This document shows, piece by piece, positions 4,604 through 8,457 of a DNA stretch of 64,000 bases. Under the pieces are notes generated by a model. The model worked only from the letters and a program-made list of their open reading frames with translations, was not told the DNA's origin and made no database searches. Origin of the DNA: Lepraria neglecta (taxonomy: Eukaryota > Ascomycota > Lecanoromycetes > Lecanorales > Stereocaulaceae); contig CM065648.1 in assembly GCA_033220425.1 (NCBI GenBank), forward strand, positions 2,790,001-2,854,000. Reading direction: 5' to 3'. The translations under genes were made by a program, and so were the position numbers. Positions within the stretch are counted from its first letter, which is position 1, and the number at the start of each line of letters is the position of its first letter.

Positions 4604-7600
4604 TTAGGAACCGGCCGATTGAGCAGTGGTCGAAGGTGAGGACCCCGAGGGTATACGGGGCAGTATCTGCATTTGGATACCCAAATTTTCTTCGATTGAT
4701 GGTTTGTGTACCGAGGTAGCGTGCGTGCGCACATGATGTATTGATCCCGCTAGAGTTGTATCATTGCTGTAAGATCGGTTCTGCTTGACAAATGGTCTTG
4801 AAGGCGGGATTGTCCCCGCTTCCAGTGTCTCACTCGTAGGTGTACGACCATCGATGATTTGTAAATTGGCGTTCCATATTCGGTCGTCCTTGGTCATCCA
4901 ATCCCAGGCCAAACTCTTAGTGTTTGACCCGAGGAGTCCAAATGTCGATATATTCGCACACCTGGCGAGGAAACGGGCCGATCTTCTGAACCACATTGTG
5001 TGCTTCTTGAACCGTCTTGTTGCTTTGAGACCTGTAAAGATTTAGCTTTCAGAATACTATGTGCAGTTTCATGGGTGGGAGATAGTTCTCAAGATCATAT
5101 GGCCGGCAAAACCCCCAACAATTGCTTCCGAAATATCATTCGAGCACTTGATTTGCGACACAATCAGGGGCAAAGAGGCCGAAAAGTAGCACATACCTTG
5201 GGCTGCATTCTCATAGTTTTCGGTGCTGAGATGGCTCTGGGTGCAGTATTCCTGTAAACATCTCGGGATTAGTACCTCCTTTCTAGGTCCGCAATTGGGT
5301 CATGCGATAGATTAGAAGAGCACAAAGCTGGGTTCAAGTCCGCTCTCTGCTCCCGAAACAAGGGGTGAATTGCTCCGGAACCATACATACCATTACAACG
5401 TAAGCTAACCCGGCGACAAGGACAATACACGATAGTCCGGTGCCGAAGCCCCAGTAGTATTTCACACCATTGGCTTTGTAATAATCGTAGGTCTCGAAGT
5501 CCATATAACCCTACAAAAGGTCAATAGTTTGCCTTTGAAACATAGTAAGACGGCGTGTCCATACCCCAAGGGAACTCCAGATACTACACATACATGAGCA
5601 GCTCTGGTTCTCATCAGCTACAGATTTGACAATCGTATCTAGTGACTCGCAGGTAGCAAGACAAGTAGGGCACTCCAGGAGATCTCGCGAGAAGCAGCGA
5701 TTGGTCGACTATCTGGGTTACAATCCCAGACGACCGTCCGTTTAGGACTCGGTGACCAACTGGTCTTGCACTTTTACTTTGTGGCTGGAGCAGCTAAAAG
5801 GCGAATTGAAGGGAAGTTGTCCTGGCTTTTTGCTACCCGCGAAGGTTGTCAGACGTACCTGATAAGCTCCCATGGTCTGAGCCCAGACAATGTAGGCAAG
5901 AAACATACAGTTCGCAACCTCACACAATGTTATGAACAAGCCAAGCCGATCCGTGAAGCAGAGATTGGCCCAGTCTCTGCGCAGCTTTCGGACCCGTTCT
6001 CTAAGATTATGCAACCACTGGTATTTGTTATAGACATCCAGAGTACGTCCAGTCCGCTCTGACAGCCGGGAGATACGATCCTCAAATGGTAAATGCTTCA
6101 TCCATTGTGGGATGCATTCTGGAGCCTGCAGAAAAGTAGCTCGGACCCACCACAAAATCATTTCAGCGGCGAAGATGGCAGTAGCAAGGGTAACGTAAAT
6201 CAGATATCCTCCGGATCGACAGCCGAGACCGTAGGTGGGTGTGAGATCTGATAGCCGTCAATTTAAACATAATATTGGTTGACAACCACATTAGACTCAC
6301 AGGAAAGAATGAACGCACCTCCAGCGGTACCGTAGAGAATGGCTACAGACCCGGCAATCTGCCAGAACATCTTCCGGTCGAACCATATCAGCTCGTGGTG
6401 GTTGGGCTCAACATCCGATATCATCCTTGTTCTTGCTCCATCTGCGTCACGAAGCCTGCAATCACTTCGGATTAGAAACGCAATTTCAAGCTAACGATGG
6501 GGTTATGAGACAAGTCTTAGGAGCGCACCCGAGGTAGGTACCCCAAAATCTGCTCGCTAAATACTCAGACTGCAATGTAATTCAGGGTTGAAGGGCTCGA
6601 AATTGTACATACCAATCCCTTCCGTAATCAGCAATCCATGCATCTTCCATACTGGAAAGGACCGAGTGTGCGCATCCGTTCTGAACTGCATCAGAACAGC
6701 GAATGTTGTGAACAGATCGATGGGAGACTTACATGCCAGCGTACCCTGCCTTGTCCAGCAAACTTGGTAAAGAAGTCATTATGGAAATAATCATCGTTCT
6801 CTAGAACTTTCGTCCAAGCAAAGTCATGCTCACTCTTCCCAATAGCCGTTATGTAAGAGCCCCTCCGCCTATGGTCGAGGAGAGAAGTCCGTACGAGGTC
6901 GAGCAAGTTGTTGAGTTGTAAGCGTATCTCATCTGTGGCGATTGGGTTGCGATCCGTGATTGAGCATAAGGCGAATACTGGAAGCCAAGCAAGCAGTAGC
7001 CCAAGAGCAAGATCGTGCGCGGTTTGATTATCCCCGAGCTCTCCAAATGCCGCTTGAATCGATATAGTCAAGGCAATCACGAATAGCCCTACAGACACGT
7101 ATGCTGCAATGACCCCCTTTTTGCGTCCTGCTCGTATGTATTTGGCTAGCTCTTGGCGTTTCTTCACCAGGCTCTCCGTTCTGTCTTCGGCCGCGGTCAG
7201 CTGTAAGCTGTCGCTGAAAAGTGCTATACGTAGTAGCTTTTCGGCGTGGTCTATTGGCATTCGTTGCTTGATGGTGTATTGATTCATGACGCTCAATAGA
7301 TAGAAAGAGTCTCTGACTTGTGCGAATTGCGAGTCTGGACCGGGAACTTCGTTATAGGGCGACGCCATGTCCAGTCTATACATTCTAGAGTCAGAACTTC
7401 TCTTCCAGACCTGCGCTGGGTTCAGAGACGAATGTTGGGACCATATAGGGGGTAAAATCCCGCCATTTGCTCGCAAAACACGGTCTCACCGCTCGTATGG
7501 CAATGCAAATCCGGGGTGAAATACTCCGAAAATACACATACATCATGGCGCATTTCCCTATAACGTGGATATTCCAGAAAATGTATGACATCCCAGCGAT

Positions 7601-8457
7601 GGGATTGCCAATCCACCTTGCCAATGCGAATGCTGTCGACCTGTGAATTGGGTTAGAACCTTATCTCCAAGTCCGCAGTTGGGTCGATAGCCAAGTATTT
7701 GAACCACGTTGAAGGCGAAAGCCCCGCCATTTGTGTCCAAAACATGGTCTACTAGCTCAGAATGCCACACGAATCGGGGTTGCAGTGCTCCTAATATGTA
7801 CATACCAGTTCTTGTTGCCCTCATATGGAGCCTGCAGTAGGAGTCCGATGACTGGAAAGACCTGCGATTAAGGTCAGCGATTGCTCCAAGTAGCGCCGCG
7901 AGTGGCAAAAGAAATCGGATATTGAGCCAAGCCGACTCCCAAAAGATCTCGCAAGAAGCAGCGTTTGGTTGGTTGTTTAGGGTAACATCACAAGAATTCA
8001 ACCAATTCGGGCTCTGTGACAGCTTGGTTTGTAACTTCATCTTTGCACCTAGAGCTGCCAAAGGGCACCTATAAGGGGATCTTGTCCAAGTTTTTGCTAC
8101 CCACGAGCGTACAAGGAGCCTTACCCAGGTAAAAATAGTCGAGCTGACATCCTTCCAAGCATAATACTGAACCCCCTTCCCGCACAGATCCTGACAGCCC
8201 TCATACGTAATAACAGACGGCTTCCCCGAATGTGCAAAAATACCATGGACTCTTCCCGTGTAATTGTAGGTGCTGTTATGCTGAGAGAAATTGGCAAATG
8301 TAGCAGCGCAGGTGGTGAAGTCCGGCCTCATACTGTATAGTGGTGTGATGACATCATAGCAAGGCACAAAGGTTAGAAGGATAAGGAGGAGGAGAAGATT
8401 CGTAAAGGGGAAGGCCCCAGTTAAGGGAAAGAGCCATGTGCTCGGGCGGCATGACAC
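4604..8457 (-). CDS. large multi-pass fungal membrane protein, 12 exons, function unknown
   Basis: Exons in transcription order: 8457-8125, 7861-7806, 7640-7542, 7384-6733, 6680-6609, 6569-6529, 6455-6319, 6247-5859, 5603-5565, 5510-5391, 5251-5197, 5031-4604. All phases agree and give about 806 aa. The product has a hydrophobic signal-like N-terminus, a short ectodomain ending in GCQDLCGKGVQYYAW, and repeated membrane segments. Conserved blocks include FPVIGLLLQAPYEGNKNW, RWIGNPIAGMSYIFWNI, RVRWHNGCAHSVL, YLASRFWGTYLGLRDADG, AYQSCSCMCSIW and EYCTQSHLSTENYENA. It matches a large, functionally undescribed family of ascomycete membrane proteins. Oddities: the first exon has no in-frame ATG before the signal-like stretch (the first is at 8331), so the N-terminus is unresolved; one intron (6570-6608) is only 39 nt; six introns of 139-263 nt fall into two sets of related sequences (see the separate intron entries). 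Confidence 0.72.
5032..5196 (-). repeat. probable member of the second related-intron set (165 nt)
   Basis: This is intron 11 of the membrane-protein gene. It begins GTATGTGCTACTTTTCGG and has a TTGCCCCTGATTGTGT block resembling the corresponding part of introns 2 and 3. Its 3' half is more diverged, so membership is less certain than for the other three. Confidence 0.45.
5252..5390 (-). repeat. member of a second related-intron set (139 nt)
   Basis: This is intron 10 of the membrane-protein gene. It shares with the intron at 7641-7805 a 5' block (GTATGTA, then GGAGCA and CACCCC-like) and a 3' block CTATCG followed by ACCCAA(T/C)TGCGGAC(C/T)T. It also shares the 5' block with the intron at 7385-7541. 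Confidence 0.65.
5604..5858 (-). repeat. long intron related to the intron at 7862-8124 (introner-like pair)
   Basis: This is intron 8 of the membrane-protein gene, 255 nt. On the minus strand it shares with the 263-nt intron 1 a 5' block containing GGGTAGCAAAAA, a middle block and a 3' block around CGCTGCTTCT(T/C)GCGAGATCT. The blocks lie in the same order with similar spacing. Flanking exons are unrelated, so the similarity belongs to the introns. Confidence 0.7.
7385..7541 (-). repeat. member of the second related-intron set (157 nt)
   Basis: This is intron 3 of the membrane-protein gene. It shares the GTATGT..TTTTCGGAG/TTCACCCC start with introns 10 and 11, and the GTTTTG..CAAATGGCGGG centre with intron 2. 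Its acceptor is the CTCTAG at 7385-7390; a CAG further upstream would break the frame. Confidence 0.6.
7641..7805 (-). repeat. member of the second related-intron set (165 nt)
   Basis: This is intron 2 of the membrane-protein gene. It resembles intron 10 in its 5' and 3' blocks and intron 3 in its centre, where both carry a TGTTTTG block followed by CAAATGGCGGG. Confidence 0.65.
7862..8124 (-). repeat. long intron related to the intron at 5604-5858 (introner-like pair)
   Basis: This is intron 1 of the membrane-protein gene, 263 nt, with a GTAAGG donor and CGCAG acceptor. It aligns over most of its length with intron 8, including the GGTAGCAAAAA and CTGCTTCTTGCGAGATC blocks. An open frame runs through it, but that peptide breaks the conserved W/FPVIGLLLQAP junction, so I treat it as intron. 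Confidence 0.7.

Follow-up and report, generated by a model that had tools for sequence, protein, structure and literature searches.

Introns that resemble one another within a single gene raise the question of whether they were gained by repeated insertion of mobile introns, and by how many kinds of element. Such a gene lies on the reverse strand of a 64,000-nucleotide stretch of the Lepraria neglecta genome (contig CM065648.1, positions 2,790,001 to 2,854,000; hereafter the window), and the initial annotation had proposed that two families of introner-like elements struck it repeatedly. The intron boundaries given there stand: with ten introns removed the gene translates as one open frame (Table 1), in which the exons between the look-alike introns are, as claimed, not repeats of one another. 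The start codon of the 4604..8400 model is provisional, and its stop lies at 4606-4604. Judged by eye the product has numerous hydrophobic stretches, and a Pfam search of the protein returned zero matches.

Table 1. Features of the host gene, with coordinates counted from the first letter of the window
Feature	Coordinates	Strand	Basis or remark
Host gene	4604..8400	(-)	Spliced translation: 778-codon open frame once ten introns are removed
Stop codon	4606-4604	(-)	Counted from displayed sequence
B4, family B intron, 165 nt	5032..5196	(-)	Most diverged of the five, 62% to consensus
B1, family B intron, 139 nt	5252..5390	(-)	Groups with asparaginase-gene copy L055 (85/90); absent from paralogue
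Ordinary short intron, 54 nt	5511..5564	(-)	Spliced translation; missing from paralogue
A1, intron carrying family A element, 255 nt	5604..5858	(-)	Position uninterrupted in paralogue
Family A inverted-repeat element in A1, 198 nt	5646..5843	(-)	Leaves 15 + 42 nt of intron
Ordinary short intron, 53 nt	6248..6300	(-)	Spliced translation; in the paralogue the matches on either side of this position are 59 nt apart
B5, family B intron, 157 nt	6456..6612	(-)	Paralogue has an intron of at most about 48 nt in the same stretch
Ordinary short intron, 52 nt	6681..6732	(-)	Spliced translation
B2, family B intron, 157 nt	7385..7541	(-)	Absent from paralogue
B3, family B intron, 165 nt	7641..7805	(-)	Absent from paralogue
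A2, intron carrying family A element, 263 nt	7862..8124	(-)	Position uninterrupted in paralogue
Family A inverted-repeat element in A2, 213 nt	7895..8107	(-)	Leaves 17 + 33 nt of intron

Similarity among the introns of the host gene

Intron pairs were scored against 300 dinucleotide shuffles per pair. A1 and A2 scored 371, where their shuffles averaged 148 (z 12.2), and the six pairs among B1, B2, B3 and B4 gave z values of 2.9 to 14.6, the weakest being B1 with B4 (score 132, under the shuffle maximum of 136). B4, initially included only as a probable member, is placed in family B mainly because of its matches to the other two introns, B2 and B3 (z 7.7 and 6.1). The eight pairs that cross A and B are noise (z -1.0 to 1.2); therefore the two separate families proposed earlier are real, and A and B as a single family is ruled out. 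The likeness of the A introns, described as extending along most of their length, is genuine but limited to the inner 198-213 nt. All four introns assigned to the second family belong there but a fifth, B5, had been missed, which matched the B profile at E 1.7e-15 before being added to it; the gene's other introns, counted as five of 39-73 nt, are in our model three short ones (52, 53 and 54 nt) and this fifth family B intron. The single paralogue compared is uninterrupted at the positions of A2, B3, B2, A1 and B1. At least three of the five family B introns (B1, B2 and B3) are missing from it and, as far as this comparison goes, may be gains relative to the paralogue, loss in the latter being the alternative.

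Family B across the genome

Copies of family B, which lie at non-homologous positions, align over their whole length, with GTATGT as donor, CTRAC as branch site and AG as acceptor. Most of them cover the profile from position 1 to 169; the first six and last two columns are nearly invariant, and while the donor, the branch A and the AG are kept the remainder has decayed. The set studied comprises 21 copies, 18 of them read completely and three at their edges; apart from L007 (256 nt) they measure 84-175 nt, and the consensus is about 169 nt. Removal as a GT-AG intron leaves an open sense frame in 18 of the 21, for which one-step removal is enough and a nested donor is not needed, and the copies with readable coding context are all sense introns. 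Individual departures are few: C1:4292275 starts ATATGT, the frame at L054 is off by one base as assembled, and L007 is not situated within an open frame. The hosts are unrelated, among them genes for an asparaginase, a feruloyl esterase, an aquarius/NFX1-like helicase, Rsa4/Notchless, an MFS protein and an anticodon-binding domain protein; at least four copies thus lie in unrelated genes, and paralogous hosts are ruled out as the source of the similarity. Protein matches cross the B junctions in each of these hosts, with one extra residue beside the junction in the feruloyl esterase. The search for further intronic copies proposed initially is positive: elsewhere in the genome, copies occupy entire introns of unrelated genes and end exactly at the splice sites. 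These properties together suggest that family B introns are spliced. The copies are not near-identical, as had been supposed: their mean pairwise identity is 59% and their relationships are star-like.

How the copies were found bears on these counts. BLAST with two single B copies as queries matched each to itself alone; a profile or consensus search, unlike single-copy BLAST, retrieves many. The second of two consensus BLAST searches gave 19 places with E values from 1e-39 to 8e-8, including two in the host gene, and pattern searches gave 17 matches for the donor side against 3 in a reversed control, 5 for the right end against 0 in the control and 9 for an internal pattern against 0. About 37 places are known for family B, five of them in the host gene. 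The 21-copy set draws on 1) the window (n=5); 2) L007, which adjoins a chance 12-mer match, and L015, which adjoins an A copy; 3) consensus BLAST (L047, L049, L050 and L051, with L049b a neighbour of L049) and a second consensus BLAST (C4:1964376 and C8:60480); 4) the donor pattern (L052-L056), with C1:4292275 found by both the donor pattern and the second consensus BLAST; and 5) L027 from a 200-kb sample. Five or six copies found via the donor pattern bias the set towards intact donors. The pattern's 17 matches include ten within the 21-copy set (B1-B3 counted there), also L007, L047 and L051, and four left out of the set (C3:607451, C3:2957332, C4:794201 and C6:3933599). Places of the second consensus BLAST outside the set are C2:3274841, C6:3879912, C3:4604476, C1:5575718, C1:3908509, C1:4135047, C3:4243347, C7:4074309 and C1:4545567, and the set also omits right-end-pattern and internal-pattern places beyond those named. 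L057 (C1:3009191), another of the 17 donor-pattern matches, starts GTATGG and was dropped as a chance pattern match. The 200-kb sample consisted of 20 10-kb pieces spread evenly along contig C1 and contained two matches to a 17-copy B profile: L027 and L038, the latter a partial match (E 5.5e-5) upstream of a possible start codon and at most a candidate intron. Extrapolated from these two matches, the genome-wide number would be of the order of a few hundred, its error being very large.

Insertion sites, the family A element and alternative origins

Taken together, the sequence data are very probably best explained by family B being an old family of introner-like elements that inserted at least five times independently in the host gene, and family A being a separate inverted-repeat element. 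The gene would then be a fossil record of repeated intron gain by family B; in this respect the initial proposal holds for B, with five insertions instead of four, and fails for the A element. A spliceosomal intron of about 169 nt with its own donor, branch site and acceptor would have given rise to many copies that entered exons seamlessly and in sense, for the most part between two Gs. The host reading frame would have survived because the inserted copies could be spliced out. Copying presumably went through the intron RNA, by reverse splicing or by use of intron RNA in break repair, and not by DNA transposition, and a fold joining the two intron ends may have aided it.

It is unlikely that family B is instead a DNA-transposon-type introner moved by a transposase, its ends being terminal inverted repeats and GG its target duplication. 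The two ends of the consensus, TGTATATTTTCGGAG and TGTAAACATTTCGGAG, can be paired like inverted repeats along some 15 bases (P 0.012), and three of 17 single copies (L015, L047 and L056) reach P<0.05. In the other 14, however, the end repeat is not significant, and of 210 pairs of internal segments 9 match the ends in score. Near-terminal inverted repeats in family B are possible but weak. A G precedes the intron in 15 of 20 copies and follows it in 16 of 20, and a 2-bp duplication is therefore possible; a GG duplication is, however, indistinguishable from a GG preference, and at lengths of 2-6 and 8 no target-site duplication rises above the cross-copy control, whereas family A still has one. 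The uniform sense orientation of the readable copies also speaks against transposition as DNA.

Duplication within the host gene, with the outside copies derived from there, would account for five of the about 37 known places lying in one gene and for B2 and B3 forming the best pair among the first four B introns. Yet identity among the window copies is 57.2% and to outside copies 58.4%, and in the tree the label 'window' needs five changes, B1 joining L055 and B2 joining L047 and L052 (85/88). Being as distant from one another as from outside copies, those in the window look like independent insertions, and the exons between them, part of a single open frame, are not mutual repeats. Local duplication is thus disfavored by this scatter and very unlikely.

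Non-autonomous MITE-like DNA elements have inverted-repeat ends, a target duplication of fixed length and dispersed copies. Family A resembles them: it is an element of about 213 bp, too small for coding sequence, present in at least 32 dispersed copies on both strands. Both ends are recognisable in 17 of 20 copies and the consensus ends pair; across those 17 the 5-bp flanks show an identity of 0.66, where comparison of different copies gives 0.29 and shifted offsets give 0.16-0.31, indicating a 5-bp target-site duplication. The element has CTCGCGGGT ends. Judged from these features, family A is a MITE-like non-autonomous inverted-repeat element, separate from B, that appears to have inserted in two introns of about 50-57 nt. 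That A, like B, is an introner whose element created its two introns, as the initial annotation had it, is highly improbable. Both A introns are absent from the paralogue and therefore may be gains, and the left end of the element contains GGGT and the right end CGAG, which are possible splice sites. But stretches of 15-17 nt and 33-42 nt separate the element from the splice sites of the gene model, and these stretches are not shared by A1 and A2, so that the likeness stops short of the splice boundaries; the 5-bp duplications occur genome-wide; and 17 of 20 copies leave no open frame across either the empty site or a hypothetical GGGT..CGAG splice in either orientation, the remaining three being close to an estimated chance expectation (a slightly different joining gave 4/20). 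On these three counts the introner interpretation of A is ruled out. Secondary insertion into existing introns is the case filtered out of introner searches in a eukaryote-wide survey (PMC9860276), and the A element matches it.

Finally, the idea that the B introns are ancestral and have stayed similar through conservation of an RNA structure or a regulatory element can scarcely be credited. The 17-copy consensus folds strongly (z -4.1; the consensus of the first six rows gave only -3.67 kcal/mol), but pairs are kept no better than shuffled partners (0.712 versus 0.701, with 62 of 500 shuffles as high), which rules out RNA structure as the keeper of the likeness; paired and unpaired positions vary alike (0.716 and 0.719), the hosts are unrelated, and at least three B introns are absent from the paralogue.

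Related systems and implications

Introner-like elements are already known in ascomycetes and family B joins them; the five insertions in one gene are the unusual part. In Dothideomycetes (Fulvia, Dothistroma, Zymoseptoria and relatives), as described in PMC4457414, entire spliceosomal introns have multiplied into unrelated genes, yielding hundreds of near-identical elements; several families may coexist, some of them decayed, less similar and presumably inactive, and four genes hold two elements each. Compared by description only, family B resembles these in its whole introns in unrelated genes, its decay and its repeated entry into one gene (five times here), and differs in its mean identity of 59%. 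PMC9860276 reports for ascomycetes no target-site duplication beyond GG. Like those pezizomycotina introners, family B shows likeness up to both splice boundaries, non-paralogous hosts and no duplication beyond GG; it differs in its strongly diverged copies and possible, weak end repeats. Given that two single B copies find only themselves by BLAST, a family of this sort might escape a pairwise search like the one outlined there.

Sister stwintrons and cropped sister introns of Hypoxylaceae and Xylariaceae, according to PMC8469720 and PMC12403724, insert seamlessly without target-site duplication and span 58-90% similarity in Hypoxylon. Their near-terminal inverted repeats, one following the donor and the other lying between the branch site and the acceptor, are complementary as RNA. 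Family B shares with them the seamless insertion, the absence of duplication, the similarity range and the placement of its possible, weak repeats. In contrast, it consists of single canonical introns, of 84-175 nt except L007, and its repeats UUUCGGAG/CUCCGAAA differ from the NTIRE-10 sequences published there. A more tentative reading, which we consider doubtful but worth stating, is that RNA-borne introns land preferentially in the host gene, given at least five independent entries of the now decayed B family, seamless, in sense and mostly at G|G sites, where few other genes are known with more than one. Here a near-terminal stem would bring the end Gs of the intron RNA together, and the RNA might return via the transcription of the gene or via break repair; the route is the same as that proposed for the Xylariales stwintrons, but with a plain canonical intron.

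The origin of new spliceosomal introns is an old open question, in which ascomycetes are, according to PMC9860276, the outlier: their introners do not bear the hallmarks of transposition as DNA. The Lepraria genome offers an internal control, namely family A with target duplications beside a diverged introner family B without any. Family B is also old enough that two single copies found only themselves by BLAST while a profile or consensus found many, and introns derived from introners may therefore be undercounted where surveys depend on pairwise identity. A gene that was in all probability entered at least five times moreover invites the question of what makes some genes attractive to introners.

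Two repeat families in introns of the window gene

The window, G000:C3:2790001-2854000, comes from a genome of 42.0 Mb on 11 contigs, which we take to be that of an ascomycete on the basis of its introns and of the initial annotation. By spliced translation, the minus-strand window gene becomes a single open frame once ten introns are removed, ending at 4604 (stop position by count); its start codon is provisional, and Pfam gave no match for its protein. We compared the six introns singled out in the initial annotation pairwise, with 300 dinucleotide shuffles per comparison. The two long introns (A1 and A2) resemble each other at z 12.2 over shuffles and the four shorter ones (B1-B4) at z 2.9-14.6, while long against shorter introns showed no likeness (z -1.0 to 1.2), which bears out the proposal of two separate families in one gene. 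The likeness of the four shorter introns likewise stands, but their count does not: a profile built from these four recovered a fifth, B5 (E 1.7e-15), so that the predicted introns are five of family B, two carrying family A and, instead of five ordinary ones, three of 52-54 nt.

Copies of families A and B and related loci; positions without a prefix are in the window
Feature	Coordinates	Observation
A1	5604-5858	intron containing A
A2	7862-8124	intron containing A
B1	5252-5390	frame restored
B2	7385-7541	frame restored
B3	7641-7805	frame restored
B4	5032-5196	frame restored
B5	6456-6612	frame restored
L015 A element	L015:1458-1678	
L015 B intron	L015:2237-2392	frame restored
L035 A elements	L035:5778-6003, 7203-7415	same orientation
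L047	L047:1501-1668	frame restored
L049, L049b	L049:1494-1657, 1717-1827 (G000:C7 near 280400-280730)	frame restored; 59-nt exon between
L027		frame restored
L050		frame restored
L051		frame restored
L052		frame restored
L053		frame restored
L055		frame restored; 93 bases in view
L056		frame restored; 26 codons only in view
B copy on C4	C4:1964376	frame restored
B copy on C8	C8:60480	frame restored
L058, L059	C1:4292275	frame restored; non-GT start
L054	L054:232-315 (G000:C3 near 1863200)	frame one base off, as assembled
L007	L007:2008-2263 (G000:C8 near 3653237)	outside any open frame
L038	L038:5357-5451	partial B match, E 5.5e-5
Paralogue	C8:671862-674157	
L064	G000:C8:672236-672332	paralogue locus near the A1 position

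Family A as a transposon-like element within introns

Genome-wide there are six occurrences of the 12-mer GGGTAGCAAAAA (reversed control 3), two of them in the window gene, and three of the remaining four places are additional A copies (E 2e-23 to 4e-16) that align with only the interior of A1 and A2. BLAST with two of the outside copies returned 15 and 23 places; hand-merged with the two window copies and a second copy in L035, these make at least 32 distinct places. In an alignment of 20 copies, 198-226 nt long, both inverted-repeat ends, starting CTCGCGGGT, are recognisable in 17. At these 17 the five flanking bases agree between left and right at 0.66, compared with 0.29 from one copy to another and 0.16-0.31 when the offset is shifted, so that family A makes a 5-bp target-site duplication, which is not clear in the two window copies. 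Without the element, the window introns shrink to 15 + 42 nt and 17 + 33 nt, remainders of ordinary-intron size with their own ends. Neither over the empty site nor after a hypothetical splice within the element ends, in either orientation, do 17 of the 20 copies have an open frame; the three that do (L017, L019 and one in L035) are at about chance level by our own estimate, and a slightly different joining opens four of 20 (L009, L017, L003, L035). The surroundings were displayed for five outside copies (L002, L003, L006 and two in L035), the rest being judged by frame tests only. Given the intron remainders and the frame tests, family A most likely entered existing introns rather than creating them, and the earlier reading of it as an introner family is rejected on the interior-only match, the duplication and the closed frames. 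The L035 pair encloses one open frame, presumably PEX14-like. L015, in and near an MFS gene, is a second place with both families, at most about 800 bases apart. The introner survey of PMC9860276 filters away TE insertions within existing introns.

Family B across the genome

BLAST with two single B copies returned only themselves at E <= 1; a six-row consensus recovered seven places, three in the window gene, and a 17-row consensus 19, two in the window gene. Pattern searches gave 17 matches for a 20-base donor-side pattern (reversed control 3), five for a right-end pattern and nine for an internal one (reversed control 0 for each). The merged total is 37 places including the window and L015, with L027 and L049b extra; about three of the 37 are perhaps chance matches. 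We examined 18 full sequences and the edges of three more; 18 of these 21 copies are predicted GT-AG introns that, once taken out, leave the sense frame open. On these sequence features family B is a putative introner-like family, as the initial annotation proposed.

Several host proteins align across the predicted junctions. The joined exons of L055 align ungapped with L-asparaginase I, and those of L052 without a gap at the junction with aquarius, while L047 has one extra residue beside its junction relative to feruloyl esterases, perhaps a codon added at insertion. Junctions also lie inside matches to an anticodon-binding domain (L051, residues 21-115) and MFS (L015, residues 37-181), and at C8:60480 a match to glycosyltransferase family 17, scoring under that family's curated cut-off, crosses the junction. 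The L049/L049b host, Rsa4/Notchless, matches over query residues 16-127, spanning the second of two junctions; like the window gene, this host has more than one B intron, in its case two. Among eight B-host peptides in the domain comparison, five of them longer than 100 residues, four had no match.

Other copies are less regular. The copy at C1:4292275, 81% identical to the consensus, starts ATATGT instead of GTATGT, which would reflect a non-canonical donor, a damaged gene or an error in the assembly. L054 carries a shortened 84-nt B intron at a Walker-A-like motif. The 256-nt L007 copy lies upstream of a possible start codon, which we take to be dehydrogenase-like, and its two profile matches cover overlapping parts; it perhaps includes a second, nested or duplicated B piece in a 5' untranslated region. 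The L038 match, which precedes a possible start codon by about 200 bases, is perhaps in an untranslated-region intron.

Probable intron gain and the B fold

A diverged paralogue of the window gene on C8 (42-54% identity in the three longest matches) agrees with the claim that the B introns record gain. One match, 606 bases long and free of stop codons, spans residues 55-260, within which lie the positions of A2, B3 and B2 (residues 69, 88 and 121, derived from window-gene exon lengths), and the 74 residues between its GAYQ and residue 612 take up 222 bases; at least B1, B2 and B3 are thus absent. Another piece, of 97 bases, continues without a break across the positions of A1 and the 54-nt intron. 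The stretch matching the B5 region has only about 48 extra bases, room for one short intron, and about 70 extra bases lie near B4. Loss of the B introns from the paralogue, rather than gain in the window gene, is less likely because at least one short intron position is kept there; a 59-base gap at residues 413/414 falls at the window gene's 53-nt intron. At L064 the paralogue seems to have an intron of its own whose end lies some 10 nt upstream of the A1 position, so that the intron positions of the two genes nearly coincide.

If 12,000 genes are assumed to share 30-120 B copies, 1e-11 to 1e-8 genes are expected to have at least five; hence chance does not account for the five in one gene, even when selection of the window on that account is allowed for. 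Over 17 rows the copies averaged 58.6% identity, computed before one boundary correction; the corrected means are 57.2% for pairs inside the window gene, 58.4% for window copies against the rest and 59.2% for the rest alone, and identity of single copies with the consensus is 57-83%. No branch of 14 in the B tree was starred, the label 'window' changes five times (mean 4.5 with shuffled labels), and B1 groups with L055 in 85/90. The five window introns thus look like separate arrivals.

In 20 copies, G precedes the intron in 15 and follows it in 16, and no target duplication exceeded the cross-copy control at lengths 2-6 and 8. PMC9860276 describes ascomycete introners as without TIRs and TSDs and, for those of fungi, refers to an RNA-based interpretation by reverse splicing. 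PMC4457414 reports decayed families as well as genes that carry two elements each. Our literature searches returned no paper that could be tied to family B. GT, branch A and AG are conserved in B copies, although donor-pattern finds lean towards intact donors. For the consensus the predicted fold has an energy of -55.6 kcal/mol (z -4.1), with UGUA and UUUCGGAG near the donor pairing with CUCCGAAA and UACA in the branch site-acceptor interval; 15 longer copies folded singly have a mean z of -0.8. Xylariales stwintrons, according to PMC12403724, have near-terminal inverted repeats of which the 3' repeat lies in the interval from branch site to acceptor, an arrangement resembling that of B. As inverted repeats the B ends pair weakly (P 0.012; nine of 210 internal window pairs equal; three of 17 copies below 0.05), and pairing is not kept across copies (0.712 against 0.701 with shuffled partners; near-terminal 0.799 against 0.789). 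The B fold may have been of use in copying, and its decay afterwards, a step that we infer, would have left an ordinary intron.
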